Below are positions 1,195-22,057 of a stretch of DNA of 23,514 nt, one piece after another; the stretch's first letter is position 1, and each line of letters begins with the position of its first letter. The DNA is from a virus. Location of the stretch: positions 1 through 23,514 of IMG/VR virus record IMGVR_UViG_3300023235_000139. One strand, given 5' to 3'. A model generated the notes under the pieces. It searched no databases. It was given only the letters and a program-made list of their open reading frames with translations, and had not been told where the DNA came from. A program made the position numbers and the translations under genes.

Positions 1195-1388
1195 TACACT
1201 GCCTTTTTATTGGTAGACTTCTTAATTCTATCGCTGGCGTTCATCGTTTTGAGATGGTCGATGATTAGGAGTGCTTCGCGACTGTAAGGCGGTTGGAACT
1301 TAAAGGTGCATACTTCGGGCAAGTAGGTCTGCATGACGGCATGTTTGTCCGACTCGGCTTGATCAATATGTTGTTGTGGGATTTTCAT
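1194..1388 (-). CDS. Small phage protein of unknown function
   Basis: A 64-aa protein (MKIPQQHIDQAESDKHAVM...) with no recognised domain. It is separated from the upstream 370-aa gene by about 30 bases holding an AATT-type heptamer repeat, so it lacks the stop-start overlap seen elsewhere in this operon. No clear Shine-Dalgarno sequence precedes the ATG. Its stop overlaps the next start as TAATG. The C-terminal STNKKAV encodes the downstream ribosome binding site. Confidence 0.62.
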   Translation of the reverse strand: MKIPQQHIDQAESDKHAVMQTYLPEVCTFKFQPPYSREALLIIDHLKTMNASDRIKKSTNKKAV

Positions 1389-1402
1389 CTAAGATAATGT
1401 TG

Positions 1403-1424
1403 AATTCTAAATTTTGAATTAATT
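1403..1424. repeat. AATT-type heptamer repeat, intergenic
   Basis: Two heptamer units, AATTCTA and AATTTTG, followed by AATTAATT, lie between the 64-aa and 370-aa genes. The block begins at the stop codon of the 370-aa gene, so the repeat supplies that stop. It belongs to the same family as the blocks at 2489, 7249 and 10435. Confidence 0.6.
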
Positions 1425-2531
1425 GAGGATTTCACCTGTTGCTTCGTCTACGGTTTCGCCGTGCATGTCTTTGACGGGGCGGGTTTCGGTGGCGCCTGCA
1501 AAGGCTTCGTAATTGTTGTTGTACAAGCTTTGGCGGCCTCCATCAATAGTGCGATGTAGATTCACAATGTGGTGGCGTAGATCTTCGGGGCAATCGTCCA
1601 TCATCTTAATCTTGGTGATGAACTTGTTTGCCACATGTTGCGCCTCGAAAGCGTAGCCAAGCATATTCTCTAAACCTTCTACGGTTGCCGCCTTATTGCC
1701 GTGCATCATATCCATGCGTTCAGCGTACTCGGCTTTTTCTTGTAAATCACTTACTAGCTTTTTCTGCTGCTTAAGTTCAGCTTCTAGTTCACTCTTAGCA
1801 TCCAGCAGCTTGGCATTGCGATCTTTGTAGCCGTCAATTTCACCCTTTAACAACTTACTGATCTCGTTTCGAGTTCGCATCTGAATATCTTCCAGGGCTA
1901 CTTCACGTCCATCGCCGAATTTCACCACGCCTGTATTAAGCACCTCAGCGAAATCGGCGTCTTCGATTCGGGCTACTTCGTACCACTTAGATAAGCCAAT
2001 ACTGTTTAAGGCGGTTAAATTTGCTTGTTGTTCTTCATTTAAGTGGGACGCTGGTGTCTCACCATGTAACACCGGTGTTACATTGCTATGTAAACCCAGG
2101 TTTACATTCGGAATTAAATCCTCAAACCTATCAGCCACTTTTAACTTTTTGTGAGCTGCTTGCCTAGAAATACCTAGCTCCACTTGATAGAACTCTTCAC
2201 GAGTACTGTAGCCTAGATCTAGATGATGCTCACCATCTAAGAACTTCTTAAGGAGAATAGCTTGGGCAAGGTCTGCCATTTTCATGAGGCTGTACAGCGA
2301 ATGCGCACTGGCTTGCTGTTGTGGTGTACGTTGCACTATTTCGCCACGTTCGGCGTCGTACACTTCGCGTACTTGGAATGAGGGTGCGGCCGTGGTCTGG
2401 TTGCCCGGAACCGCCACTGCGCCGCCATTTTGTGTGCTTTCGCAAGAATCATCCGTAGATGATGTTGTGACCTCATTTTCTTGATCGGAATTTTGAATTC
2501 TGAATTCTGAATTTTGAATTTCTTCAGCCAT
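1419..2531 (-). CDS. DNA-binding protein with HTH and coiled coil
   Basis: A 370-aa protein, the largest in the leftward operon. In order it has a low-complexity N-terminus (residues 1-50, partly encoded by heptamer repeats), a helical region with an HTH-like signature (about residues 95-140: GYSTREEFYQVELGISRQAAHKKL), a short insert-like stretch around residues 140-165, a predicted coiled coil rich in E, K and L (about 235-290), and a C-terminal helical region. GYSTxEEFxxxxLGISRxxAxxxL resembles DNA-binding segments in plasmid and phage replication or regulatory proteins; the exact family is not identified. The start at 2531 follows GGAAG and overlaps the previous stop as TAATG; an open reading from 2624 would cover the upstream gene. 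Oddly, residues about 150-163 are encoded by a palindromic repeat also found at 10328-10374. Confidence 0.78.
   Translation of the reverse strand: MAEEIQNSEFRIQNSDQENEVTTSSTDDSCESTQNGGAVAVPGNQTTAAPSFQVREVYDAERGEIVQRTPQQQASAHSLYSLMKMADLAQAILLKKFLDGEHHLDLGYSTREEFYQVELGISRQAAHKKLKVADRFEDLIPNVNLGLHSNVTPVLHGETPASHLNEEQQANLTALNSIGLSKWYEVARIEDADFAEVLNTGVVKFGDGREVALEDIQMRTRNEISKLLKGEIDGYKDRNAKLLDAKSELEAELKQQKKLVSDLQEKAEYAERMDMMHGNKAATVEGLENMLGYAFEAQHVANKFITKIKMMDDCPEDLRHHIVNLHRTIDGGRQSLYNNNYEAFAGATETRPVKDMHGETVDEATGEILN
2043..2083. repeat. Palindromic dispersed repeat inside a coding gene
   Basis: This stretch contains the perfect 20-base palindrome ATGTAACACCGGTGTTACAT (2064-2083), joined to a second dyad (GTGGGACGCTGGTGTCTCAC, imperfect). 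Positions 2043-2071 match 28 of 29 bases of the reverse complement of 10328-10356, and 2060-2080 match 10354-10374 exactly. It is read in frame by the 370-aa gene as NVTPVLHGETPAS. A neighbouring dyad (GTAAACC/GGTTTAC, 2090-2105) adjoins it. The shared unit suggests a mobile REP-like element tolerated in a protein linker. Confidence 0.72.
2489..2521. repeat. AATT heptamer tandem repeat, in-frame
   Basis: Four tandem heptamers (AATTTTG, AATTCTG, AATTCTG, AATTTTG) plus a partial unit lie just inside the 370-aa gene. Three heptamers make 21 bases, so translation gives a seven-residue period, seen as EIQNSEFRIQNS near the N-terminus. Similar NSEFRIQ-type stretches are known from proteins of Bacteroidota, Chlorobiota and cyanobacteria; that link is from general knowledge, not a search. 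Confidence 0.75.
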
Positions 2532-2824
2532 TACACTGCTTCCTTGTTTGATTTTTCGTTTAGTATTTTTCGGATGTACTCGTGCGATAAGCAGAAGTAG
2601 AAGGCGATTTTTCGCAAGCTCCACTCAAACGAAACTTGGTGAAATCGCCATGCGGTCCATTCCATATCTGTGCCCATAAAGGGGTTTTCGGTGTAGCCAA
2701 CAGGCTCAATTTCTAAGGCTCTGCGAACGGTGCGTTCGCTGCATTCTAGGCGCTTGGCAATAAGTGCATTACCCATGCCTACCGATTTCGCCATTACTAT
2801 GCGGTTGTGGAGATTAGTCGGCAT
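2531..2824 (-). CDS. Small helix-turn-helix DNA-binding protein
   Basis: A 97-aa protein with one clear HTH, GMGNALIAKRLECSERTVRRAL (about residues 16-38), close to the pattern of transposase/recombinase-type and regulator HTHs. A second possible HTH is SLRKIAFYFCLSHEYIRKIL (about 69-88). It is probably a DNA-binding regulator or replication accessory protein in the early operon. GAGG lies eight bases before the ATG, inside the 23-aa microORF that overlaps its start. Its stop overlaps the next start as TAATG. The DNA-binding role is inferred from the motif; target and function are unknown. Confidence 0.72.
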   Translation of the reverse strand: MPTNLHNRIVMAKSVGMGNALIAKRLECSERTVRRALEIEPVGYTENPFMGTDMEWTAWRFHQVSFEWSLRKIAFYFCLSHEYIRKILNEKSNKEAV

Positions 2825-2885
2825 TAGGCGACCTCTTCATTGCATGTAATACCTTAACGGTAGCCTCATTTTTTTCTGCACCCAT
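2814..2885 (-). CDS. Possible 23-aa microgene in the early operon
   Basis: An ORF reading MGAEKNEATVKVLHAMKRSPNAD fills what would otherwise be the only gap between the two HTH genes. GGGAG lies six bases before its ATG at 2885. An ATG at 2888, overlapping the upstream TGA as ATGA, would add one Met. Its end overlaps the next gene by 11 bases and contains that gene's GAGG ribosome binding site. It may make a real micropeptide or serve only to couple translation. Confidence 0.42.
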   Translation of the reverse strand: MGAEKNEATVKVLHAMKRSPNAD

Positions 2886-2887
2886 CA

Positions 2888-3166
2888 TCAACTCCCAGTG
2901 GCTGTTAATTCTTGAGCAAGTTGATCGCTCACTTCTATTTTCTGCCTATTTAAGATTTCGTCACGATATGAGACAGCCTCTTTTATAATCGCTGAGATTT
3001 TAGGAGTGATTGGGTAATCTTCTTTAAAAGCACGACCAATAGTACGGACCGTAACTTTTATATCCTTTTTATCGAGTCTTGATTGTATTTGTTTGTGCGC
3101 ACCCAGTGGCAAAAGGGTGTTCAATGCCACTCTATTGATGGTGCTTATGGAAATTTGTTTTCGCAT
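2888..3166 (-). CDS. Small HTH-like putative phage regulator
   Basis: A 92-aa protein, first gene of the leftward operon. LLPLGAHKQIQSRLDKKDIKVTVRTIGRAF (written here only as a region, residues about 19-49), followed by a helical ITPKISAIIKEAVSYR segment, matches the layout of small HTH proteins common in Bacteroidota phages, where an LPxG helix start precedes the recognition helix and a final helix of the IxxAAxxL type. Its position next to a divergent control region suggests a Cro- or repressor-like role. ATG at 3166 is preferred over the preceding TTG (3169). No Shine-Dalgarno is visible. No family member is recognised by name. Confidence 0.62.
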   Translation of the reverse strand: MRKQISISTINRVALNTLLPLGAHKQIQSRLDKKDIKVTVRTIGRAFKEDYPITPKISAIIKEAVSYRDEILNRQKIEVSDQLAQELTATGS

Positions 3167-3369
3167 CAATTGTCTGTATTATGTTGGTTGTGTGTCTGAA
3201 CTCTGTCATAATATAATCACAATTTGTCATAATGCCAAAAGAATTATCGAATAATTCAATAAAAATATTCAGGTTTTTTACGCCATACTTAGTGGCGTAG
3301 CAATACTAGGTTCGATCATTGCAGTATCAACATATTGACATAATCCACCGTATCACCTAACTTAACAAG
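3167..3369. promoter_or_regulatory. Divergent control region with repeated operators
   Basis: The region separates the leftward and rightward operons. It carries TGTCATAAT at 3204-3212 and 3225-3233, 21 bases apart (two helical turns), and TGACATAAT at 3336-3344. It also holds the dyad GAATTAT-CGA-ATAATTC (3241-3257). The third copy overlaps a possible -35 TTGACA (3335-3340), with a poor -10 (TAACTT, 3358-3363) 17 bases on, which would place a transcript start near the GTG at 3370. Operator function is inferred from repetition and helical spacing. Confidence 0.5.
3279..3299. repeat. Inverted repeat in the divergent control region
   Basis: TACGCCA and TGGCGTA form a perfect 7-bp dyad around the seven-base centre TACTTAG. 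A T run precedes it on the plus strand, and neither strand has a T run after the stem, so it is not a convincing terminator. A protein-binding dyad is more likely. Confidence 0.45.
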
Positions 3370-3678
3370 GTGAAATCTTCAGCAAGTGCATCCTCCGAAC
3401 AATCTGATCTATTCCCTAGTGAGTTCCAACTCGGACCTATTACTTCTATCTTGAGAGAAGAATTGAGTCCGGCTGGGTTCGCAGCTATTAAGAATCTCGG
3501 CAAGCATGTGGAGTATCTAATGCGCGAACAGCAACGCAAAGACGAGATTAGAACCGAATACTTCACCCTTCGCGAATCGCTTGGCTCGGCAAAAGAAGCA
3601 CAACGGCACATCATGGATACCTACGAGCTAGAATACGATCTGTTTGATAAGATCATCTACCCAAGAATCGGGAATTGA
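3370..3678 (+). CDS. Small unknown protein upstream of the terminase
   Basis: A 102-aa protein, first gene of the rightward arm. It is mostly helical in appearance, with basic and acidic residues alternating in the middle (KHVEYLMREQQRKDEIRTEYFTLRE is within residues about 44-70). No family recognised. The only available start is GTG at 3370, since an in-frame stop (TAA, 3358) precedes it and there is no ATG until residue 51. AAGG lies directly against the GTG, too close for a normal Shine-Dalgarno, so a leaderless message or a shorter product is possible. Confidence 0.55.
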   Translation: MKSSASASSEQSDLFPSEFQLGPITSILREELSPAGFAAIKNLGKHVEYLMREQQRKDEIRTEYFTLRESLGSAKEAQRHIMDTYELEYDLFDKIIYPRIGN

Positions 3679-3723
3679 CACACCCCTACATCCCCTCTCA
3701 AGCGGGGACGTAAACGCCACCTT

Positions 3724-3740
3724 CGTACACCTGTTGTACG
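3724..3740. promoter_or_regulatory. Late-control dyad, copy 1 (terminase side)
   Basis: The dyad CGTACA-CCTGT-TGTACG lies about 85 bases upstream of the terminase small-subunit ATG. The only other copy seen is at 10497-10513, upstream of the protease gene, differing by one central base. A TATATT that could be a -10 lies about 22 bases further on (near 3763). Shared placement before two morphogenesis blocks suggests a binding site for a phage activator or repressor. Confidence 0.5.
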
Positions 3741-3781
3741 TAATAGGTCTAAGCGCGGCACTGTATATTAGGATTGGTGTA

Positions 3782-3817
3782 TCTCGACAAGCTCGATAAC
3801 CGAATCTCGATAAGCTC
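3782..3817 (+). repeat. Short direct repeat in terminase leader
   Basis: TCTCGACAAGCTC (3782-3794) and TCTCGATAAGCTC (3805-3817) are 13-mers with one difference, 23 bases apart, just before the ATG at 3825. They lie within a possible N-terminal extension from TTG 3774, but their repetition fits a leader or operator better than coding sequence. Confidence 0.4.
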
Positions 3818-3824
3818 TACCATC

Positions 3825-4289
3825 ATGCCGAAAACAGGAAACAAAGCGTACTTATTAGAACCGCAAGCCTTTGAGCTGTACAGAACAGGTATGACTTTGA
3901 CCGAGATTGCCAAAACCGTAGGCGTTTCTTTACAAACCATATCGGGTAAAAAGGGCTGGAAGGTAAAGTACAATTGGGATCAGAAGATTGAGAAGTATGA
4001 GACCTCGAGCCGTTCCAGTGTAGAGATTATCAAGCGGATTATAAAAGACAAGCTAGACGAAGTTAAGAATACGCCCGTGAAGGAATTGCCCAAAGGCTTC
4101 GAAGATGGGCTGTTTAAGTTGCAATTGATGGCAGAAAAGATGGATGTGAATTTTGATCGCCTTGCCTTTACCCTCGAAATTATGAAGGATTACAACGAGT
4201 TTCTTACGTACCATCATCCTGAACTTGCTGGGCATTTCCACGAATTGTTACCTGAATTTTTAAATGCCCAAAGCAAGAAGTATGGCTAA
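3825..4289 (+). CDS. terS: Terminase small subunit, DUF1804-like
   Basis: A 154-aa protein with an N-terminal HTH, FELYRTGMTLTEIAKTVGVS (about residues 17-36), followed by LQTISGKKGWKVKYNWDQKI. This layout, an HTH then a WD segment and a long helical tail, matches the small terminase proteins of Mu-like phages (DUF1804). It would bind phage DNA and hand it to TerL for packaging. ATG at 3825 is preferred; an upstream TTG (3774) would add 17 residues encoded by a repeat-rich leader. The gene ends inside the TerL start (ATGGCTAA overlap), which supports the pairing. The HTH is seen directly; the terminase role comes from motif and position. Confidence 0.72.
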   Translation: MPKTGNKAYLLEPQAFELYRTGMTLTEIAKTVGVSLQTISGKKGWKVKYNWDQKIEKYETSSRSSVEIIKRIIKDKLDEVKNTPVKELPKGFEDGLFKLQLMAEKMDVNFDRLAFTLEIMKDYNEFLTYHHPELAGHFHELLPEFLNAQSKKYG

Positions 4290-5769
4290 GCGACTGATAT
4301 CCAAAAAAGACTATCTCAAGCGTTCAGAGGAACTACTTCAACTCATCCAACAGGATGTGAAGCCGTTTATGGATGTGAGTGTTGCTGGTATAGCTGAGCG
4401 TAGGCACCGAGCAGAAACCGATCTAGAATATCTCTGCCAAACGTATTTACCGCATCATTTTAGTGGAGTATTTGAAAGCGGACACAAAAAAATTATTCAA
4501 GCAACCACGGTTTGGAATAAAGTAATCCAAGCTCGTGGATTTCGCGGTTTGGGTAAAACTACCATCATTGGCGTGGGATATGCTTTGCAAGCCATTCTGT
4601 TCAAGCGCACCCGATACCTTCCATTCATATCCGATACGGACGATCAAGCAGAAATGCAGATCCTTACCATTAAGATGGAACTGGAAAAGAATCCACGAAT
4701 TATTGCCGATTTTGGTGAACAGCGTGGTTTGGAATGGAGCGAAAACGCCTTTGTTACTAAAGACGGTGTGAAGGTTGAAGCAAGTTCCTGGCGTAGTTTT
4801 AAACGTGGCAGAAAGTACATGCAATATCGTGCCAAGATTATTGTGTGCGATGATCTGGAGAGTTTGGAATCTGCTAAAACCAAAAAGAATGTAGATAAGC
4901 GTGAAGATGCTCTCCTTGGTGATATCCTGAATGCCCTCGATTTGAAAGCCGAATGGCAGCTGTTTGTGGTTACCAACAAATTAAGCCGTGATGATGTTGA
5001 TGATCGATTGTCAAAGAATAAATCAGTGCATACGGTTTCTGTTGTTGCCGAGCAAGAAAATGAGCGTGCTACTCACCCAAAGAGTTTTCCAAAGAAGGTC
5101 TTAAATCATATTAAAGACACTATTGGATCGGTTAAGTACGCCCGTGAATATCTGCTGAAAATTATAAGCAGTGAGCAAGATGATTTTCAAGAAGAATGGT
5201 TTGTGATGCTGGATAAGCCCGCACTAAACTACAAATACATAGTGCAAGCGAATGATCCATCAGTAGGCTCTACCGAAGGTCATGATACCAAGGCTTGGTT
5301 AATTATGGGATTGACTGAAGACGGCAAGCATGTGGATGTAATGCACGCTTGGATTCGGCATACCACCATCAACAGCATGTGTAAAACGGCGTTTGATTTG
5401 CATAAGGTTTGGAATCCACACAAGGTTGCCTTCGAAAGTAACGGCTTCCAGGTGCTCTTGAAAGACAAGCTCGAAACGATTGCCCAGGAGAATGGCCACG
5501 GTTTTGGATTAATGAGTTCGTTGCAACTCATTCAAAATAACACCGTAAAGAATACGCGGATAATGAGATTGCAGAGTGGTATTGAAAATGGATTCTATCG
5601 TTTTGTGAAAGGCTCGGATATGAGGCGCTTAATCAATCAATTCTTAGATTTTGACAGTTCCACCACATCCAACACCGATGATGGACCTGATGCGATGGAG
5701 ATGGGCAACCGTGCCCTACGAAAATTAAACGGCGAAATTGAAACTGTAAATGCAGAGGTATATTACTGA
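4282..5769 (+). CDS. terL: Terminase large subunit, TerL
   Basis: A 495-aa packaging motor: an N-terminal ATPase that pumps DNA into the procapsid and a C-terminal RNase H-fold nuclease that cuts concatemers or host-joined DNA. Walker A is RGFRGLGKTT (about residues 85-94) and Walker B KIIVCDDLE (about 185-193). Nuclease acidic residues are in QANDPSVG (about 325), AFESNG (about 384) and DDGPDAME (about 466-472). Length is normal for the family. ATG 4282 is chosen because it overlaps the terS stop as ATGGCTAA and follows AAGAAG; ATG 4264 would add six residues. The stop overlaps the portal start (TGATG). Confidence 0.95.
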   Translation: MAKRLISKKDYLKRSEELLQLIQQDVKPFMDVSVAGIAERRHRAETDLEYLCQTYLPHHFSGVFESGHKKIIQATTVWNKVIQARGFRGLGKTTIIGVGYALQAILFKRTRYLPFISDTDDQAEMQILTIKMELEKNPRIIADFGEQRGLEWSENAFVTKDGVKVEASSWRSFKRGRKYMQYRAKIIVCDDLESLESAKTKKNVDKREDALLGDILNALDLKAEWQLFVVTNKLSRDDVDDRLSKNKSVHTVSVVAEQENERATHPKSFPKKVLNHIKDTIGSVKYAREYLLKIISSEQDDFQEEWFVMLDKPALNYKYIVQANDPSVGSTEGHDTKAWLIMGLTEDGKHVDVMHAWIRHTTINSMCKTAFDLHKVWNPHKVAFESNGFQVLLKDKLETIAQENGHGFGLMSSLQLIQNNTVKNTRIMRLQSGIENGFYRFVKGSDMRRLINQFLDFDSSTTSNTDDGPDAMEMGNRALRKLNGEIETVNAEVYY

Positions 5770-7166
5770 TGAGCACCGACCCCGAAGACCGACAAAAATA
5801 TGCCTACGCCGAAGTAATCACCGGCGATGAAAGTGAAAGCTGGATGTTGCCATTGCTAGAAAAGAGTGGGATTGCGAAAAGCTCGAAGACATCCATCAAA
5901 AAGAATTCCTATGCCATTATAGATGAGCCTGTCGGCACTCGGGATTGGATTGAGCCGAAACTCGCGTTCAACGATCTGCTCAGTTGGTTGGAAATGAGTA
6001 TTTGGCACAAGCGATGCGTATTTGCAAAAGCCGCCGTTACGGTTGGCCTTGGTTGGCGCTTGGTTACTAAAGAGGAAGACAAGGCGCCCGACGAAGCTCA
6101 TGCGAAATTGATGGAGTTCTTGAGTCAGCCGAACGAAAACAAGCTAGATAGTTTTTCCTTAATCGCCTTCAAAAGCTTGGTAGATTATGAAGCGACAGGG
6201 AACTTCGTGAATGAATTAAGTAGCGCAATGGGTGGCGAGCTTGGCAGATTGTATCACCAACGAATGGCGAATTTTCGTGTGGCTAAGAAACGGAATGACG
6301 GCTATTACCAAGTTCCCATTAAGGGGTATACATTGCGACAGGTGCATTTTACGCGCTGGGGAGTGGTTGAGCCTGGCAAGAATCAGATCCTCCATTATTA
6401 CCAGTACGATCCAAGCAGTGATTATTACGGTAGCCCAATTTGGGTGCCCGCACTGGCTGATATGGTTCTAGATCGTTCGGCGGTGGAATTCAACATCAAT
6501 CTATTTCGGAATCAATTAGTGGCGAAGTTCGCCGTGATTGTGGAGGGTGGGAAATTAAGTGCTGGCGCAAAGCAAAGCCTTCGGGAGTTCCTAGCCTCGC
6601 AAGCTACCGGCACCAAAAATGCAGGGCGAACACTGATATTTGATACGGATGATCCTAATGTGAAGGTGAAGATTGAGAAGCTGGAAATGGATTTCGGCGA
6701 CAAAAACGGCTTCATGGGCAAGACTCGGGAAACATCACGAGATATGATTGTGAGTGCGCATGGCGTACCACCTCGCATTGTCGGCATTGTTACTGCAGGT
6801 CAGCTAGGCGGTGGCGGTGAGGCTGATTCTCAGTTGAGGATCTTCGAAGAAATTGATCGCGCTCCCGAACGTAATCGTATTGAAGAGTTCTACAATCGCA
6901 CGATTATTCAAGATGCACGATTCGGTGAACACAAATGGAACCTGGAGTTCAATGCTATTGATACGACGAACCGCAAGATGGATGCCGAGATTGAGAACAT
7001 CTTGAAGCAAGCTGGCATTAAGCTCCCTGAAGAGAGTCGGCAAGATCTTGGGCTGCCATCATTGGATGAGGAAGGTATGCAACGCCTGGGCGCAAGCTCG
7101 GGATTGGAGCAAAACGTGAATGAGCTGGTGAGCCTCAGAAAACGTTTAGAAGGTCTAGATGAATAA
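5769..7166 (+). CDS. Phage portal protein
   Basis: A 465-aa portal, the dodecameric ring at the head vertex through which DNA passes and on which TerL and the neck assemble. Family signs include the mid-protein YYQYDPSSDYYGSPIWVPAL stretch (about residues 215-235), the acidic and glycine-rich region around residues 325-355 with SAHGVPPRIVGIVTAGQLGG, and a helical C-terminus with FYNRTIIQ. These are typical of the P2/PBSX-type portal superfamily. It sits directly after TerL and before the gpF-like gene, the canonical order. Translation is coupled to TerL by a TGATG overlap. Confidence 0.9.
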   Translation: MSTDPEDRQKYAYAEVITGDESESWMLPLLEKSGIAKSSKTSIKKNSYAIIDEPVGTRDWIEPKLAFNDLLSWLEMSIWHKRCVFAKAAVTVGLGWRLVTKEEDKAPDEAHAKLMEFLSQPNENKLDSFSLIAFKSLVDYEATGNFVNELSSAMGGELGRLYHQRMANFRVAKKRNDGYYQVPIKGYTLRQVHFTRWGVVEPGKNQILHYYQYDPSSDYYGSPIWVPALADMVLDRSAVEFNINLFRNQLVAKFAVIVEGGKLSAGAKQSLREFLASQATGTKNAGRTLIFDTDDPNVKVKIEKLEMDFGDKNGFMGKTRETSRDMIVSAHGVPPRIVGIVTAGQLGGGGEADSQLRIFEEIDRAPERNRIEEFYNRTIIQDARFGEHKWNLEFNAIDTTNRKMDAEIENILKQAGIKLPEESRQDLGLPSLDEEGMQRLGASSGLEQNVNELVSLRKRLEGLDE

Positions 7167-7248
7167 AATAGGCACTCGAATACGTTGGACTTGTTAGAAA
7201 TCGAAATGAACGGGAAATGAACGAAGTGCCACGGCCTAGTCGTCGTGG

Positions 7249-7281
7249 AATTATGAATTATGAATTTTAAATTTTGAATTT
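7249..7281. repeat. AATT heptamer repeat at the gpF-like gene start
   Basis: Four heptamers (AATTATG, AATTATG, AATTTTA, AATTTTG) and a partial unit span the start of the next gene. The units supply an in-frame ATG at 7253 that runs into a TAA at 7268, just before the TTG at 7274. The gene therefore has no usable ATG at its beginning. Confidence 0.7.
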
Positions 7282-8614
7282 CCCAAAAAACAAATACTAT
7301 CTCGTCACCAAAGGGCTTATTGAAGCGCGGAAGATATATGCGATAATCCGAAAGGATGAATATGATAAGATTGCGGCGGAGCTACAGGATCTCTTGGTTC
7401 GCAGTTGGAATGAGGCGACAACCGAAGCGATTCGCGATGTAATTCGGGCAACCAACAATAGATTGGCGTTCACCAACGAGATGCTGGACGAGATGATTGC
7501 CGCACTTAAGCCCAAGCTCGGCGCTGCCTTTGCTGGGAATGTGGCAAATACCATGCTCGAGATTCAAGCGAGTACGTACTCCCTAGGAATGAAAGACATT
7601 CTAGGAATCTCGCCGTCGTTGAACTTGGTAGACAATAAGGCACTGGAAGCTCTTGCACGTTACGCCAACTATCCCGTAATGCATCACTTCGATGCTCAGC
7701 TCGAAGGCAAGATTCGCGAATTTGGCTCCAAAATTATAAGCGAAGGCTTAAACCGTGAGGAAGCCGGAAAGCTCTTTGAGGATGAATTTGCAAAAAAATA
7801 CGACCTTCAATCCTTCCGATACTGGCAAGGCTATGCGAATCATGTTGTCACTGATACCAGGGAATCGGGTAGAATTAGTGCCTACGAGCAAGCCGAAGTG
7901 GAGTATGCAGAAGTGCGAGCCATTCTAGATCACCGAACTACGGAGATCTGCCGACACATGCACGGACGCAGAATTTTGGTGTCTGAACTTAGAAGAGTTG
8001 AAGATATCAAGTTGGCCAATCCAGATCCCTCAAAAATAAAAGACATTATGCCATGGGCGAGCGCCAAATCGGTAAGTGAGAGCAAAACTACCAAACTCCC
8101 TGATGGAGCCCTAAAACCACCGTACCATTTCAACTGCAGAACACGAACGGTAATGGCGCGAGAAGTAAGCGAACGCAATCAAGTTTCTGGCACTTCAATG
8201 GGCAAAGGTGTTGGAGCCGATGATAAGAAAAAGCTGAATAGTCTTACCGATGAGGAATACAGCAATTGGATGCAGACCATTCGTGGCAAGCGCAAGTTCG
8301 GCTTTGCGCCCGATCAGATTGAAGAGCAGCTGAAAGAATATGCCAGCAGCTTGGGCTTGAAAACCGCCGACAAAGACGCCTACCTCAAAGCCGGGCAAGG
8401 TATCGTTCGAAATGCTACGGGCGTAATTGCCAAGGTGAACAATACTGCAGACGGCAAACGACAGTTCAACTTTCATTTCTTTTCGGCTGCCGGCGTTGCC
8501 GTAGTGGGTGATGATCTGCTCTTCCACTCCATTAAAGGATTAGAAGATTCCGCCAAGAGCTTCGCCGGGAGTCTCAGTAATGGCTTGAAGCTCGGTGGTA
8601 GCTGGGATGAGTAG
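7274..8614 (+). CDS. Mu gpF-like head morphogenesis protein
   Basis: A 446-aa minor head protein of the Mu gpF/SPP1 gp7 family, which associates with the portal during procapsid assembly and may enter the cell with DNA. The diagnostic part is DHRTTEICRHMHGRRI (about residues 219-234), followed by KPPYHFNCRTRT (about 281-292): conserved Cys/His residues with a proline-rich link. The N-terminal 200 residues are helical. After about residue 300 a further 145 residues follow, including a beta-rich end (NFHFFSAAGVAVVGDDLLFH), which could be a separate C-terminal domain. The start is uncertain: TTG 7274 lies in a heptamer repeat, with a stop at 7268. The 107-base gap before it breaks the otherwise tight operon. 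Confidence 0.85.
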   Translation: MNFPKNKYYLVTKGLIEARKIYAIIRKDEYDKIAAELQDLLVRSWNEATTEAIRDVIRATNNRLAFTNEMLDEMIAALKPKLGAAFAGNVANTMLEIQASTYSLGMKDILGISPSLNLVDNKALEALARYANYPVMHHFDAQLEGKIREFGSKIISEGLNREEAGKLFEDEFAKKYDLQSFRYWQGYANHVVTDTRESGRISAYEQAEVEYAEVRAILDHRTTEICRHMHGRRILVSELRRVEDIKLANPDPSKIKDIMPWASAKSVSESKTTKLPDGALKPPYHFNCRTRTVMAREVSERNQVSGTSMGKGVGADDKKKLNSLTDEEYSNWMQTIRGKRKFGFAPDQIEEQLKEYASSLGLKTADKDAYLKAGQGIVRNATGVIAKVNNTADGKRQFNFHFFSAAGVAVVGDDLLFHSIKGLEDSAKSFAGSLSNGLKLGGSWDE

Positions 8615-8660
8615 CATAACGTGCCGGGCTATGTTCAGTTGATTTTAGCGAGCGTTATGT
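8615..8660 (+). other. attC-like site 1, left edge of cassette island
   Basis: CATAACG (8615-8621) and CGTTATG (8653-8659) form outer arms, with inner GCTA/TAGC pairing (8628-8631 with 8646-8649 approximately). The right arm includes GTTATGT (8654-8660), comparable to the integron R' core GTTRRRY, though one position departs from consensus. It begins directly at the stop of the gpF-like gene. The size and nested arms match folded attC sites. Confidence 0.42.
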
Positions 8661-8748
8661 ACGGTTTGGCTATGCAGCGTTGAGGAACGAAACGATTTAT
8701 AGGTTGTGTTATATACTGGCACGACTTTAACAACTAAAAATTAATAAA

Positions 8749-9048
8749 ATGGTACATTCTAAATTTATAATTGAAGGCGAAAACTTGATAATGGCTAAAT
8801 GCACTTTTCATAAACAACTAGCAACTGACAAAGAAAAAGTAAAAGGCGGTGGATGGTTTAGATTCGATGATAACAAGAAAGCCTTTATACTTGGTGGATC
8901 TTCTCATGACTTTGGTTATGCTGAGATGAACGATATTAAAAAGTGCATTGAAGATGGTAATGTTTACGGAAATAGCAGAATGAGTAGGAAGATGGACAAT
9001 TATAAATTTTTCTATGACACACCATCTGAATTGATAGCACTAAACTAA
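8749..9048 (+). CDS. Unknown cassette protein, probably truncated
   Basis: A 99-aa protein (MVHSKFIIEGENLIMAKCTFHK...) not recognised. Glycine/aromatic stretches such as GGGWFRFDDNKKAFILGGSSHDFG suggest a compact alpha/beta fold with no membrane segment. Codons are far AT-richer than those of the head genes. No Shine-Dalgarno is seen; a shorter start at the internal MAKCTFHK is possible. The reading ends at 9046-9048, but coding character continues in the -1 frame to 9206, so this may be the front part of a roughly 150-aa gene broken by an indel. Confidence 0.55.
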   Translation: MVHSKFIIEGENLIMAKCTFHKQLATDKEKVKGGGWFRFDDNKKAFILGGSSHDFGYAEMNDIKKCIEDGNVYGNSRMSRKMDNYKFFYDTPSELIALN

Positions 9049-9206
9049 GTTCTTGTATATACTCGGATGATGCTATTAAAATTTTAGAAGATGCAGGATT
9101 AAAATTAAATACTGATTTTGTGACAGGAAATGATTCTCCAAGAGGTGGGAAAACAGGGAACTTTGTTGAATTAACCTCTAAAGGAAAAACAAAAGCAATC
9201 AAATAA
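9030..9206 (+). pseudogene. 3' part of a frameshifted cassette gene
   Basis: In the frame one base back from the preceding ORF, a stretch of about 58 codons stays open and reads IYSDDAIKILEDAGLKLN, then DFVTGNDSPRGG and ends ...KTKAIK. It has no ATG, GTG or TTG near its beginning, yet its TAA overlaps the ATG of the next gene as TAATG, the hallmark of a natural gene end. This suggests it was once fused to the 8749 reading frame and lost or gained bases between about 9027 and 9046. A sequencing error would look the same. Confidence 0.5.
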
Positions 9207-9469
9207 TGGATAATAAACAATCATCAGAAATCCGTCAGGATTTAATTCTGACCTATTTAAAAAACAGAATGAAAGAAAAAAAAGTTACTCAAAATAAACT
9301 TGCTGAAATACTGCAAGTAAGTGTAATTACTTTAATAAGATACTTTAAAAAAGAAACACAAATGCCTTTAGGTGTGTATTTAGAAATATGTGTTGCTTTG
9401 GAATTAAGACCTTATTTAATACCAACTGAAAGCGATAATACTGAAATGCAACGAATGTTTTTAAATTAG
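9206..9469 (+). CDS. XRE-family HTH regulator
   Basis: An 87-aa protein with an XRE-type helix-turn-helix, VTQNKLAEILQVSVITLIRY (about residues 26-46), then a typical helix pair ending MPLGVYLEICVALELRPYLI (about 54-73). It probably binds DNA as a dimer and regulates its own cassette or the preceding gene; in toxin-antitoxin pairs such proteins follow the toxin, but no toxin fold is recognised next to it. It is coupled to the upstream reading frame by TAATG. Composition is very AT-rich (for example 12 G/C in the 60 bases 9241-9300). Confidence 0.75.
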   Translation: MDNKQSSEIRQDLILTYLKNRMKEKKVTQNKLAEILQVSVITLIRYFKKETQMPLGVYLEICVALELRPYLIPTESDNTEMQRMFLN

Positions 9470-9514
9470 TTTTTTTAGCGCATGAGTGGTCGCCTTTTTT
9501 TTATTTTATTGTAG

Positions 9515-9567
9515 ATAACGGAAATAATATGAGCCGTTTTTTCTATGGCTTATATTTGGTGTTAGGC
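9515..9567 (+). other. attC-like site 2, between cassettes
   Basis: TAAC (9516-9519) pairs with GTTA (9561-9564). Inside it AATATGAGCC (9526-9535) pairs with GGCTTATATT (9547-9556) over ten positions with one G-T wobble. The right core is GTTAGGC, an exact match to GTTRRRY. The stem-loop with unpaired spacer between core and inner stem, about 50 bases long, is the classic attC layout. It lies 46 bases after the XRE stop and 47 before the methyltransferase start. Confidence 0.52.
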
Positions 9568-9614
9568 ATCTGTATTTTTTAATTTTTTAGGGAGGGATTT
9601 TTTAATTTAATTAT

Positions 9615-10247
9615 ATGAGCGAAATAAACTTTTACAATATAGACAACATCGAGTTTATGAAAACTAAACCTGATAACTTTTACGACCTTGCAATAGTAGA
9701 TCCGCCTTATGGATATGGGAATAAAGAAACGGCAATACTTAATTTTAGAATGGAGGCGCAAGAAAAGGATTGGAATATTGCACCAACTGAGGAATATTTT
9801 AAAGAACTGTTTAGGGTTTCTAAAAACCAAATTATTTGGGGCGGAAACTACTTCCCGTTTATTTGGGGGTTTGGTGGTAGATGCTTCATTTATTGGCATA
9901 AAGGAAACCCAGTGCCAAATTTTGCAGATGGTGAACTTGCCTGGACATCTTTTGATAAGAATGCCATACAAATAGATTATCGATATTATGGTAATCTGCA
10001 AGGCAAAACAAGCGCCACTAAAAAACTACACCCAACACAAAAGCCAATATACTTATACAGAAAAATACTAACCGAATTTGCGGAAAAGGGATTTAAAATA
10101 TTAGACACGCACGGAGGAAGCCACACACACGCAATTGCAGCCGATATGGAGGGATTTGATTTAGATATTTGCGAAATAGAAAAGGAGTATTTTAATAATG
10201 GTAAAAAGGCTTTTAATGAATACAGAAGCCAACCTAAATTGTTTTGA
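9615..10247 (+). CDS. Orphan DNA methyltransferase, N6-adenine/N4-cytosine type
   Basis: A 210-aa S-adenosylmethionine-dependent DNA methyltransferase. Catalytic motif IV is DPPYGYG (residues 29-35), near the N-terminus, and HPTQKP (139-144) precedes the cofactor-binding region ILDTHGGSHTHAIAA (162-176) and GFDLDICEIEKEYF. That order, motif IV before the AdoMet site, fits the beta class, and the short length fits phage versions. The glycine loop (THGGSHTHA) departs from FxGxG in a way common in phage homologues. There is no partner nuclease, so it is probably protective or regulatory. GGAGG lies about 18 bases before the ATG, too distant for a normal ribosome binding site. Confidence 0.88.
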   Translation: MSEINFYNIDNIEFMKTKPDNFYDLAIVDPPYGYGNKETAILNFRMEAQEKDWNIAPTEEYFKELFRVSKNQIIWGGNYFPFIWGFGGRCFIYWHKGNPVPNFADGELAWTSFDKNAIQIDYRYYGNLQGKTSATKKLHPTQKPIYLYRKILTEFAEKGFKILDTHGGSHTHAIAADMEGFDLDICEIEKEYFNNGKKAFNEYRSQPKLF

Positions 10248-10284
10248 AAAAACAAAAGAGCGGTGGATTTTTATTTTTTATTGT

Positions 10285-10377
10285 GCATAACACCAAGCTA
10301 ACGTGGGTTACTATCCATGTTAGCAACTGTTACATGGTGAGATACCAGCGTCCCACCATGTAACACCGGTGTTATGC
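10285..10377 (+). other. attC-like site 3 with nested hairpins
   Basis: Outer arms GCATAACACC (10285-10294) and GGTGTTATGC (10368-10377) are perfect complements. They enclose two hairpins: GCTAACGTGG/CCATGTTAGC (10297-10306 with 10315-10324, one G-T wobble) and the perfect GTTACATGGTG/CACCATGTAAC (10329-10339 with 10354-10364). The whole can fold as a three-way junction. The right core reads GTTATGC. The first hairpin plus outer arms resembles an attC; the second hairpin may be a repeat inserted into it. Confidence 0.5.
10328..10374. repeat. Palindromic dispersed repeat, second copy
   Basis: Positions 10328-10356 match 28 of 29 bases of the reverse complement of 2043-2071, and 10354-10374 match 2060-2080 exactly. 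The block includes the perfect 14-base palindrome TAACACCGGTGTTA (10361-10374). Two self-complementary parts side by side, found in both coding and noncoding settings, indicate a REP-like or miniature mobile repeat. Confidence 0.72.
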
Positions 10378-10434
10378 CAGGCGGAATTTATAGCTATTCT
10401 TTTTTAGCTCAGATTTTTGTAAAATTGACGAAGA

Positions 10435-10572: not shown

Positions 10573-11703
10573 ATGCCCCAGGCCAAACCAAAACGCCGTC
10601 TCAAAAATCTAACCGTTGAGTTCATCTCCCTGGTAGATGCCGGTGCGAATAAGCGCGAAGTCATTTACAAAAATGCTGATGCTAATTCACTCGAAAATAA
10701 CGTTGCTAAGACCATCGAAATTCGCAAAGTAGATGATGAGCAAGGTCTTGTGTATGGTATTGTATATGCTCCCGATGAATCTGATGCTCACGATGACACG
10801 ATGCTTGCCGCCGATATTAAGAAAGCCGCGCATGAATTTCTTGCTGCCGGCAAAACCAATCGCGTAGATAAGCAGCACGATCAAAATCCCGATAAAGGCT
10901 ATGTTGTAGAAAGCTACATTATTGGCAAAGCGGACGCCAATTTCCCCTCTGATCCAATTGGCTCCTGGGCGGTAGTGATTAAAGTAACCGACGAAGCCAC
11001 CAAAAAAGAACTTAAAGATGGCGAGATCAAAGGTATAAGTATGGAAGGTTTTGCTGAAGTCGAAAATCTAGAAGACGAAACCCCTGTAGAAAAAGCGGAA
11101 TTCATTATTTCTGAAGTGAAGAAATACATCGACGAGAAATTCCCGTCCATCAAAAAACTATTTAAAAATGGCGAAGAAATGAATACTACCAAACAGTCAG
11201 TGACCGATTTTGCAGAAATATTAAAAAGCCTAGATGGCAAGACAGAAGAGGAGTTTATTGCCATTCAGAAGAGCTTCGCCGATTCCCTGGTAGACAATCA
11301 ACTTCGCCAAGCGGTGTTCGCGCTAGAATCTTCCAGCTATGAGATTATGAGATCCGATTCTATATCAGACAAAAAGGCGGCATTAGTTACCAACGCTGGT
11401 GAATTCGCAGACTATGTATCCGGGCTAACCATTTCAAAATCAAAAACCCCAAAAAATGAGGACACATCCATGTCTGAAGTAACAAAAGAAGCAACCGATG
11501 TGGAGAAATCCGAAGGTGGTGATGAAAAGAGCCCGGAACTCCAGGCTATCGAAAAATTAACGTCAACCGTAACGGAGCTTGGCAATCGCATTGAGAAGGT
11601 CGAGAAGACTGCCGGTATCAGTAAGGCTAATTCCGGACAAGATGATGGCGAGCATGTAGAGAAGAGCTACAGCGCAGACGCTCCTCTTAATATTTTCGGA
11701 TAA
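10573..11703 (+). CDS. XkdF-like prohead protease fused to scaffold
   Basis: A 376-aa protein with an N-terminal protease domain (about residues 1-165) of the XkdF/peptidase S78-like family: VYGIVYAPDESDAHDD (60-75), RVDKQHDQNP with a candidate catalytic His (about 102), and GISMEGFA with a candidate Ser (about 156). The remaining 200 residues are acidic, lysine-rich and helical, ending in a coiled-coil-like segment (ELGNRIEKVEKTAG). That is the usual form of a scaffold released by proteolysis during capsid maturation. It directly precedes the capsid gene. The ATG at 10573 has only a weak GATCGG upstream; no better start exists. Protease-scaffold fusion is a known arrangement; the cut site is not visible. 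Confidence 0.82.
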   Translation: MPQAKPKRRLKNLTVEFISLVDAGANKREVIYKNADANSLENNVAKTIEIRKVDDEQGLVYGIVYAPDESDAHDDTMLAADIKKAAHEFLAAGKTNRVDKQHDQNPDKGYVVESYIIGKADANFPSDPIGSWAVVIKVTDEATKKELKDGEIKGISMEGFAEVENLEDETPVEKAEFIISEVKKYIDEKFPSIKKLFKNGEEMNTTKQSVTDFAEILKSLDGKTEEEFIAIQKSFADSLVDNQLRQAVFALESSSYEIMRSDSISDKKAALVTNAGEFADYVSGLTISKSKTPKNEDTSMSEVTKEATDVEKSEGGDEKSPELQAIEKLTSTVTELGNRIEKVEKTAGISKANSGQDDGEHVEKSYSADAPLNIFG

Positions 11704-19209: not shown

Positions 19210-22057
19210 GACTGTTAAGTATTATATGGAAGTGGATGCCTCTGGCGCCGTAAAAAGTGCTGGAGAAGCTCAAAAAGGATTCCTAGATGTTGATAATGCC
19301 GCCGACCGTACAGGCGTTGCCACTATTGCCCTTGGCAATATTATGGCAAATGCCGCATCCATGATGGCGAATAGCCTTGCCAATGTCGTTTCCCAATCCC
19401 AAGAATTATTCTCTCGCCAAGAGCAAGCGGAACAAAAAGCAGCTGCCGTAATTAAGGCAACCGGAGGCGCCGCTGGCTTCGAGATTGAACAGCTGAAAGT
19501 GTACGCCTCTGAGCTACAATCCTACACTACCGTTGGGGATGAATCCATCTTAGAGAGCATGTCTACCTTGCTCACTTTTCGCCAAGTATCGGGCGATACC
19601 TTCAAGCAAGCTACGGAATTGGCATTGGATACCTCTATGATTTTCGGCAGCTTGGAATCGGCTACGTTGCAGATTGGTAAGGCATTGGAAGATCCTATTG
19701 AGGGAATGACCGCTTTGCGACGTGTTGGGGTAACGTTCAACGAGCTTCAAAAAGAACAGGTGAAAGACTTTCTCGCACAAAATAACTTAGCAGCTGCACA
19801 AGGCGTAATTCTTGATAATTTGCGTGGTCAATTAGGCGGTGTTGCCAGGGAACTTGCCCTAACCGATACCGGGAAGTGGGAGCAGTTCATGAACCGTATT
19901 GGGGATTCTCAAGAAGATTTAGGGGGATTGATACTGAGTCTAAAAGTAGGATTAATCCCAGTTTTTGAACGTTTGCTTTCCATTTCAGGCGCATTTGTTG
20001 GCAAATTGGAAGAATGGTTAGGTTTGGATCTTGCTTCGCAATTGAATGATGAACGCATTAAGATGAATGGTTTGGTGTTGAGCATCACCAGTCTTAATGA
20101 AGAAAATGAAGATCGACAGGCACTAATTAATGAGTTAGTGAAGACCTATCCTGAGTTTTTAGGCAAAATCAACCTAGAAAAAACCACCAATGAAGAGCTT
20201 AGAACGGCATTAGAAGAAGTCAATCAATTATACATAGATCGCGCAGCTATACAAATTGCGACCGCCTCGCAAGAGGAGGCCATTGTCGAAGCTGGACAGG
20301 CGTTGGTAGCTCAAAAAACCAAAGAAGGGCAAGCCTATCAGACGTTAACTCGCCTTAATGAACAATATGGGTTTGGCATAGATTTGACGACAGGAACGCT
20401 GCAAGAGAACTTAATAGCTACTCGCGAGGCGCTAACTGCCCGCGGTGAATGGGCAAATAGTGCAACATTAGGCAGAATTGCTACCAACGAAGAAGCTATG
20501 GCGGCGGAAAATTTATTAGGCGTACAGAATGATTTAGTAGTTGCGTATAATAAGGTAACCAAGGCTCAAAATCAGGTAGTTGAAGCGTCCGAATTTCGAA
20601 AAGTGATTGAAGATAGCCTGGTAAAATCAGGATCTGAAGCCATTAAGGTAGAAGGCGTTGTTGAGATCACCATTCCTGATGCTCCAGAACTTCCCGAAAT
20701 TCCCACTCCTGAACCAGTAGATGTATTTATACCTGCAGGTGAAATAGTATTTGGTGACTTTGCTATGCCCCATTGGGATGAAATCCTCTTTATTCCAGAC
20801 GGCACGATTGATACGCTGAATAAGAATTTGGCTAAGATCGATTTGATGCCTGATAGCACGCTACAGAACTTGCAGGATCAACTAAGTGTAGTGCAAGATC
20901 TGTACGTGAACTCGCAAAGTGATGCCGAAAGACAGCGGTTAGCAGTGGTTGAGGAAAGTATTCAGCTTCAAATTCAAGCCAAAACAGAAGGCGTTGATGT
21001 TGATCGTATTATCGCCGAAGAATACCTTGAAGAGCAAAAAGAGACGTTTAGCAATTTGTATAACACCGCTTCCGATTATGTGAATGTGTTCAGTCAAATT
21101 CGGCAACAAGAAGCAGAACGGCAAATTACGCGCATAGATAAGGAGACTCAAAAAAGAGTTAAAGCCATTGATGTGGAGCTCAAAAAAGAAAATTTAAGCG
21201 AAACAGAACGTGCGAAGCTTATTCAAGAGCGGCAACAAATTGAAGCATCTGCAGAAGAAAAAAAGGCGACCATAAAACGCGAAACGTTTGACAAAGAAAA
21301 ACGTGCCAATACGGTAATGGCAATTGCCCAAACCGCACTTGCGATAATTAAAGCTTTGCCAAATATTCCATTAAGTATAGCAGTTGGAGCTTTAGGCGCA
21401 CTTCAAACGGCGGTGGTTGCCTCCCAGCCCAATCCCTATTTAGAAGGTGGATTGATTGAAGAGCGAATGCCGAATGGGTTAAGCGCCCCAGGAATAAAGA
21501 TGATTTCTATCAACGAAAATGGATCTCCTGAATACGTTGTGAATGCTGAGAGTACCAAAAAATTCCAGCCTATCTTAGACCTAATGAACTACAATCCGGG
21601 GCAAGCAGAGCAGCTTATTGCCGAATTAGGAGTGCAGCCATTTTTAAGCGGTGGATTGATTTCAGAATCATCAAATTCAGAAACCAAAGCAAAAACCGTA
21701 GCAGATTATTTACGTATCGAGCGTGAATTGATGGAGCTATTGAATCGCTCCGAAATCAGTAATTATAGCGAGAGTACGACTCTGAATGAGCAGATATTAA
21801 GCGGCACTCTAGATCGATTTAATGAGGTTGGAGGCTTAGCGCCTGTTCAACCTTCCATTAATGCCTTATCAGGTGCTAATTTTGATGTGCCAACATTGGA
21901 AACTAACACCATCACCGATGCCATAGCCGAGGCGATTGAGAATGGGTTAAGCAATTTTAAAGCGAATCTTAGGCTAGTTGCAGAAGGTAGAGAGCTTAAT
22001 GTAGCCTCTGATAATGCACGCGAATTCGAAACTAAGCAAACTATTCCGTTCAATTAA
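19202..22057 (+). CDS. Tail tape measure protein
   Basis: A 951-aa protein, the longest in the window, that sets tail length and is expelled with the DNA. Features in order are an N-terminal YYMEVDASGAVKSAGEAQKGF start typical of the family, helical Ala/Gln-rich regions, a Pro-rich stretch (about residues 485-510), a strongly charged coiled coil (RQQEAERQITRIDKETQKR, about 635-690), a hydrophobic segment (ALAIIKALPNIPLSIAVGAL), then EGGLIEERMPNGLSAPG and NENGSPEYVVNAEST, a Gly/Pro ending common in tape measures of Bacteroidota phages. No peptidoglycan hydrolase domain is seen. It starts inside the chaperone stop and ends in a TAATG overlap with the next gene. Confidence 0.92.
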   Translation: MAKTVKYYMEVDASGAVKSAGEAQKGFLDVDNAADRTGVATIALGNIMANAASMMANSLANVVSQSQELFSRQEQAEQKAAAVIKATGGAAGFEIEQLKVYASELQSYTTVGDESILESMSTLLTFRQVSGDTFKQATELALDTSMIFGSLESATLQIGKALEDPIEGMTALRRVGVTFNELQKEQVKDFLAQNNLAAAQGVILDNLRGQLGGVARELALTDTGKWEQFMNRIGDSQEDLGGLILSLKVGLIPVFERLLSISGAFVGKLEEWLGLDLASQLNDERIKMNGLVLSITSLNEENEDRQALINELVKTYPEFLGKINLEKTTNEELRTALEEVNQLYIDRAAIQIATASQEEAIVEAGQALVAQKTKEGQAYQTLTRLNEQYGFGIDLTTGTLQENLIATREALTARGEWANSATLGRIATNEEAMAAENLLGVQNDLVVAYNKVTKAQNQVVEASEFRKVIEDSLVKSGSEAIKVEGVVEITIPDAPELPEIPTPEPVDVFIPAGEIVFGDFAMPHWDEILFIPDGTIDTLNKNLAKIDLMPDSTLQNLQDQLSVVQDLYVNSQSDAERQRLAVVEESIQLQIQAKTEGVDVDRIIAEEYLEEQKETFSNLYNTASDYVNVFSQIRQQEAERQITRIDKETQKRVKAIDVELKKENLSETERAKLIQERQQIEASAEEKKATIKRETFDKEKRANTVMAIAQTALAIIKALPNIPLSIAVGALGALQTAVVASQPNPYLEGGLIEERMPNGLSAPGIKMISINENGSPEYVVNAESTKKFQPILDLMNYNPGQAEQLIAELGVQPFLSGGLISESSNSETKAKTVADYLRIERELMELLNRSEISNYSESTTLNEQILSGTLDRFNEVGGLAPVQPSINALSGANFDVPTLETNTITDAIAEAIENGLSNFKANLRLVAEGRELNVASDNAREFETKQTIPFN

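Follow-up and report, generated by a model that had tools for sequence, protein, structure and literature searches.

Probable integron-type gene cassettes stacked between phage head genes and their relation to an integrase of Bacteroidota and their phages

Integron cassettes can also enter short GTT-type targets outside an integron, a process known as attG insertion. The integron integrase IntI possesses an extra domain that has been described as necessary for integron recombination (PMC9668308), and a survey of complete genomes found one complete integron in the Bacteroidetes proper, namely in Salinibacter ruber (PMC9024848). The closest phage system was described by Qi 2023 (PMC9892861), who report attC-like sites with methyltransferase genes in phages, Polaribacter phage P12002L among them, as well as clusters in virulent phages without an integrase. 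One site of the P12002L attC cluster was recombined with attI1 by IntI1, and that study names neither Cellulophaga nor Bacteroidota. From this work, gene cassettes in phages, including those with methyltransferases, are already known.

Here, an AT-rich insert in the head operon of a virus contig, that of an aquatic phage, is analyzed. The window, i.e. the whole stretch of DNA under study, comprises the 23,514 bases of the virus record IMGVR_UViG_3300023235_000139. We regard it as quite probable that integron-type cassettes, in a form specific to Bacteroidota, make up the insert as an array, and that they entered a palindrome behind the gpF gene through site-specific recombination at AA^C, which reads G^TT on the other strand.

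Units and folded sites in the head operon

The insert is located between the genes for a gpF-like minor head protein and an XkdF-like protease (Table 1), and the GC content falls across it from about 0.48 to 0.29-0.39. All its coding content, a 99-aa protein, an 87-aa HTH protein and a 210-aa N6/N4 DNA methyltransferase, lies on the plus strand. Positions 8620-10363 consist of three stacked insertions of 899, 772 and 73 bp in a 20-bp palindrome just past the gpF stop. Searching the insert against Rfam gave no match; an S15 leader match at 21613-21721, within the tape-measure gene (E 0.004, 28.8 bits versus a gathering score of 39.5), is probably a chance match. The glycine-rich motif of the methyltransferase reads DTHGGSH compared to DSHLGSG in the corresponding enzyme of the related phage L001 (see below), hence the window enzyme may differ in cofactor binding or be impaired. 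Comparisons of the terminase and portal proteins of the window did not fix the host of the phage.

Table 1. Positions of the insert features and of the flanking genes in the window.
Feature	Position	Strand	Remarks
gpF-like minor head protein, left flank	7274..8614	+	stop codon 8612-8614; Phage_Mu_F E 6e-6 (slightly short of the curated cut-off), PHROG minor head E 9e-12
Site 1, weak attC-like site of second type	8613..8660	+	R' = GTTATGT 8654 or GTTATAT 8708
Target site, left half	8615..8619	+	GCATAA from 8614 on, with the AA^C cut; 8619 joined to 10364 rebuilds palindrome GCATAACACCGGTGTTATGC
Cassette A, 899 bp	8620..9518	+	site 1, two genes, right end GTAGATAA
99-aa protein, cassette A	8749-9048	+	ORF
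87-aa HTH protein, cassette A	9206-9469	+	HTH_26
Site 2, attC-like hairpin with R boxes	9513..9567	+	model R1 69 bits, fold z -2.1
Cassette B, 772 bp	9519..10290	+	site-2 hairpin and methyltransferase; other unit in L001
N6/N4 DNA methyltransferase, 210 aa, DPPYG motif	9615..10247	+	PF01555 E 2e-9, PHROG_67 E 2e-32
Gene-less mini-unit, 73 bp	10291..10363	+	hairpin 10291-10341; end CACCATGTAA mirrors GTTACATGGTG over 11 nt; absent in L001
Target palindrome, right half CACCGGTGTTATGCC	10364..10378	+	common to L001 from 10361 onward
XkdF-like head maturation protease, right flank	10573..11703	+	PF14550 E 3e-30

A first-pass annotation had described the AT-rich insert with the right cores GTTATGT (8654), GTTAGGC (9561) and GTTATGC (10371) and with T-rich flanks, and all of these features are present, the T-rich flank being common to sites 2 and 3. 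Its three attC-like sites turned out to be of unequal strength. Site 2 is strong: it reached 69 bits with the covariance model R1, although this model includes site 2 among its 28 rows, and its hairpin also occurs in another phage (L025). Site 3 is a composite of the mini-unit, which has its own hairpin (fold z -2.4), and the right half of the target palindrome. By its folding, site 1 is weak, with z values (-0.2 and -0.9) no better than chance. Thus, attC-like folded sites with R''/R' boxes are found in site 2 and in the mini-unit, and the window represents a CALIN, a cluster of two or more attC sites in the absence of intI, with two strong sites, one weak site and no recombinase on the contig. 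A prophage had been assumed as carrier; nothing shows one, since the 23.5-kb virus contig encodes no tyrosine recombinase (no PF00589 match in a profile search of the window). The second hairpin type represented by site 1 (GTTGATTTTARCGAGYGTTATG) recurs at 83-139 of the window on the minus strand, at about 4200-4270 in an unrelated contig (L254) and also in the L001 contig (L253). The copy at 83-139 overlaps the end of a 193-aa ORF at the left end of the window.

Exchange of a unit between two phages and the empty site

A second virus record, IMGVR_UViG_3300022844_000020 (L001), is 100% identical to the window over 1274-9520 and 99.8-99.9% identical from 10361 onward. Between these blocks it carries a different sequence of 0.7 kb with another hairpin and another methyltransferase (46% identical to the window enzyme in the alignment) and without the mini-unit; the exchange is known from these two metagenome assemblies. 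The breakpoints, ..GTAGATAA^C and TAA^CACCGGTGTTATGCC, fall exactly at AA^C, which is G^TT on the minus strand in both cases, the same as the integron crossover. The exchanged units differ in both hairpin arms and loop. Because the site-2 hairpin changes along with the downstream gene, the hairpin and the gene after it form the mobile unit. The standard reading, in which an attC follows its gene, was rejected, because the hairpin moves with the following gene in the L001 exchange.

The exchange sets the unit edges at AA^C (8620-9518, 9519-10290 and 10291-10363), which corrects the previously proposed units running from GTT to GTT, and the folded sites travel with the gene after them instead of closing the genes before them. 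Nor does site 3 serve the methyltransferase gene as its attC; it consists of a gene-less 73-bp unit with its own hairpin plus one half of the palindrome. The suggestion to look for an empty site proved useful: when all three units are removed, GAGTAGCATAA and CACCGGTGTTATGC become joined and the resulting sequence contains a perfect palindrome, and the empty site as deduced from the sequence is this 20-bp palindrome behind the gpF gene. Relatives with 68% identity (L003-L005) provide no such test, because in them another small gene separates this pair of head genes, and no attC-like site was seen there by inspection.

Each unit is laid out as C, attC-like hairpin, GTTRRRY, leader, gene and RYYYAA, with the hairpin preceding the gene. 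If the unit were circularised, its right end plus the C would rebuild an R'' box mirroring R'. The mirror comprises 9 nt in the L001 unit and 11 nt in the mini-unit; the right end of cassette A mirrors GTTATATAC (8708) or GTTATGTAC (8654) in 8/9 bases, and the core mirror of cassette B is imperfect and only partial. These comparisons show that a folded attC-like site of its own marks the 5' edge of each unit and a mirrored R-box end its 3' edge, and that one whole unit was exchanged between two otherwise near-identical phages. Hence, the window units appear to have been swapped at the G^TTRRRY core in the way of integron cassettes.

The hairpin family in phages and the direction of its cargo

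The 20-nt loop core of the hairpin was found in 77 viral stretches. In 257 Gb of genomes it gave 17 matches, three of which belong to the family by sight, and a host origin of the core was rejected because of these three real matches only. One of these three is a spacer in a 30-repeat CRISPR array of a Prolixibacteraceae genome (L140, 470-508); since this spacer matches the core, a host has sampled a phage hairpin site of this kind. Different units occupy one common flank (..gatgaataa^C) in L044, L045, L059, L068 and L116, and one common unit is found in two flanks in L044 and L059. A mirrored core of at least 9 nt occurs downstream of 33/69 distinct family hairpins and upstream of none of the 69 (Fisher p 1e-12), therefore the layout of the family is not due to chance. 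Together with the L001 exchange at AA^C, the mirrored ends bear out the initial proposal of integron-type gene cassettes in a phage head operon.

Homologous recombination at the conserved hairpins, leaders and T-rich flanks could also have shuffled the phage modules without a site-specific enzyme. The T-rich flank common to sites 2 and 3 would fit, as would the hybrid-looking hairpins of L068, L081, L036 and L073, whose arms are mismatched, as would result from a crossover between two units within the conserved loop. However, the units are bounded precisely by AA^C, a position beyond the conserved core of the hairpin, the units of the window and L001 have neither hairpin arms nor loop in common, and the mirrored ends of 9-11 nt would have no role, making this explanation very unlikely.

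The covariance model R1, built from 28 sequences including site 2 of the window, found Polaribacter phage P12002L to have four sites, of which two lie shortly before the methyltransferases gp35 and gp36. These family hairpins are likely the sites of the published attC cluster. In four Cellulophaga phages the variable array abuts a constant junction, RYYYAA^CAATGTTATATAACTAATTC, which adjoins a 79-codon gene and a tyrosine recombinase gene coding for a PHROG_1-type integrase (P0001), which is distinct from the Bacteroidota integrase described below. Several junctions in the Cellulophaga phages phi13:2, phi18:3, phi19:3 and phi46:3 (L142-L145) keep the left half only (AACG..TATATG..) without the right half and GTT core, and perhaps represent decayed or locked cassettes. 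A search with P0001, run without a positive control, matched 0/28 other hairpin phage records, and PF00589 was found in 4/45 hairpin phage records; a phage-encoded recombinase common to all hairpin phages was rejected on these counts.

The direction of the cargo was compared by one method. The longest ORF is on the AACG (bottom) strand in 62/72 phage units and 79/91 units of phage integrons, versus 5/67 chromosomal units (Fisher p 2e-22 and 2e-25, respectively, values that overstate independence since the units share descent). The usual gene direction is thus found in 62/67 chromosomal cassettes, and the phage units mostly lack the arrangement of an attC at the 3' end of its gene in the same direction. 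Moreover, an upstream ORF has its in-frame TAA stop at AA^C in 20/72 phage units compared to 3/67 chromosomal ones. According to these comparisons, the same cassette family appears in many phages at different places, with its cargo inverted relative to chromosomal arrays. Among 59 phage-unit proteins, including those of the window and L001, Pfam identified 14 N6/N4 methyltransferases, 5 C5 methyltransferases, one N6_Mtase, one Mom and single others, a sample that is biased since some loci were found via a methyltransferase. The cargo likely serves DNA modification against restriction.

It might be envisaged that the folded strand of the cassette is cut and then joined to the G^TT target by a XerA/IntI-like tyrosine recombinase of Bacteroidota, which would come from the chromosome of the host or from a co-infecting phage. 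The inverted cargo would then set the new gene in the same direction as the phage operon, often right after a TAA stop, such that it could be expressed with the phage genes. The pay-off would be the exchange of DNA-modification and similar genes guarding phage DNA from host restriction.

The Bacteroidota integrase and known systems

A phage-type hairpin unit directly adjoins the gene for a 370-aa tyrosine recombinase on a contig of a Chitinophaga-binned genome, and the same neighbourhood occurs in two more genomes; phage-type units lie beside the Bacteroidota integrase in two chromosomes. The best match of this enzyme is XerA, followed by IntI. Its spacing from the Arg-I box to patch III is 93-98, apart from two misread motifs, compared with 135-136 in IntI1 and Vibrio IntIA, i.e. 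about 42 residues of the IntI-specific domain are missing between Arg-I and patch III. TIGR02249 stayed below its cut-off in 9/9 genomes, the match being split around the insertion. A tree puts the 42 Bacteroidota enzymes into one group (100/98) that is separate from IntI and Xer, a rough placement based on two sequences each for the latter two. Judged by the extra domain near patch III, the enzyme would not be an IntI and is not filed as such; its neighbourhood suggests that it may act as an integron integrase.

Integrons are thought to be rare in Bacteroidota, yet a related integrase (E 1e-30) was found in 191/395 sampled genomes, which is a count of homologs and not of proven arrays. The chromosomal loci were analyzed by a simple stem search, because R1 alone misses the chromosomal sites of about 130 bp. 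At 43 loci, attC-like stems lay downstream of the integrase in one orientation 74 times and were placed otherwise 5 times. Sister loci are alike for about 40-140 bp past the integrase stop and then diverge, several pairs exactly at the GTT core; this attI-like point seems to behave as attI would. In genome G143, four contigs (L171-L174) end at the same hairpin and the integrase is near a contig start; this assembly is broken at repeated attC-like sites. A treble-clef-like gene (DUF2116-like) is located by the chromosomal integrase at five or more loci, e.g. L170 15949-16338, L179 10365-10748 and L125 3227-3589.

Among viral contigs, a scan with the single 375-aa integrase P0002 gave no match, and the integrase alignment A3 matched many. 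In 57 viral contigs, 126 attC-like sites are upstream on the integrase strand and 5 elsewhere, and in several contigs the integrase is preceded by a YAA^C junction with an AT-rich TATATA stretch after it. One contig (L344) combines family hairpins with an integrase of the Bacteroidota family and a terminase (PHROG_9, E 1.6e-118); its methyltransferase is 56% identical to that of the window and is the same gene as in L029. Another (L345) has a window-type hairpin, a DnaB-like helicase and an integrase. Not all integrase contigs are proven phages, since Terminase_6N was found in 5/34 viral contigs searched and the remaining ones are viral by IMG/VR classification. Two viral-contig integrases among L264-L343 show an Arg-I to patch III spacing of 135, as in true IntI. 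The integrase is present in 4/47 hairpin-bearing records, many of which are fragments, and no A3-type integrase was found in the 27.9-kb record of L001. A complete integron, with integrase and attI beside the array, is not seen in the window phage, and the window and L001 may be fragments.

Collectively, our data make it likely that a large integron class, driven by a XerA-like integrase lacking the IntI domain, is common to Bacteroidota and their phages, that the phages carry complete versions as well as cassettes with inverted cargo, so that insertion behind a TAA stop would set the gene in the phage operon, and that the window is an integrase-less outpost in which an exchange was caught between two natural phages.

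Two other explanations have to be considered here. A transposon of the IS200/IS605 kind, with a single-strand Y1 (HUH) transposase reading hairpins, would account for an end hairpin, a short target sequence and the strand-specific layout. However, the units have one hairpin and not one at both ends, the mirrored cores are 9-11 nt and not 4-nt guides, and the arrays flank tyrosine recombinases, which leaves this origin extremely improbable. Alternatively, the units might be classical cassettes with ordinary attC from bacterial integrons, placed by true IntI at secondary (attG-like) sites in the phage without any special system. The G^TT crossover is identical, and one attC of P12002L, a phage with the family hairpin, was recombined by IntI1 (PMC9892861). 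In contrast, the core occurs in 77 viral stretches versus three real matches in 257 Gb of genomes, phage cargo is inverted relative to chromosomal arrays, and the integrase beside such arrays has no IntI domain; hence classical cassettes appear unlikely. The integrase tied to the present family is not a classical IntI.

Returning to the Bacteroidota-type integron class, the comparisons point to a family in Bacteroidota and their phages that is large and apparently undescribed. The openly licensed literature yielded no account of such Bacteroidota integrons, and within the literature searched, novelty appears to extend to the class of integrase and its integrons in phages as well as to the inverted cargo and the natural swap. 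With cassette arrays of their own, phages would be able to pass DNA-modification genes directly from virus to virus, and perhaps also between virus and host. Because the Bacteroidota integrase is missing the extra domain, hairpin recognition without it becomes a testable question.

Compared to known systems, the present units resemble classical integron cassettes in the G^TT crossover, the mirroring R''/R' boxes, the folded strand and the small single-gene units, and classical integrons in that arrays adjoin a tyrosine recombinase and have a constant junction resembling attI. They differ by the hairpin ahead of the gene in phage units, i.e. the inverted cargo, by compact hairpins with a conserved T-rich loop and a mirror of up to 9-11 nt, and by an integrase without the IntI-specific domain. 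As in attG insertion, a short GTT-type target would be used, here the gpF palindrome, whereas enzyme and gene orientation would be different. The Bacteroidota enzyme aligns best with XerA and shares the Xer-like spacing from Arg-I to patch III; unlike XerA/XerD-type recombinases, it adjoins attC-like arrays in chromosomes and viral contigs. Finally, the phage CALINs likewise comprise methyltransferase-linked attC-like sites and P12002L holds the present hairpin family, whereas that report describes no natural swap, inverted-unit logic or phage-encoded integrase of the present class (PMC9892861).
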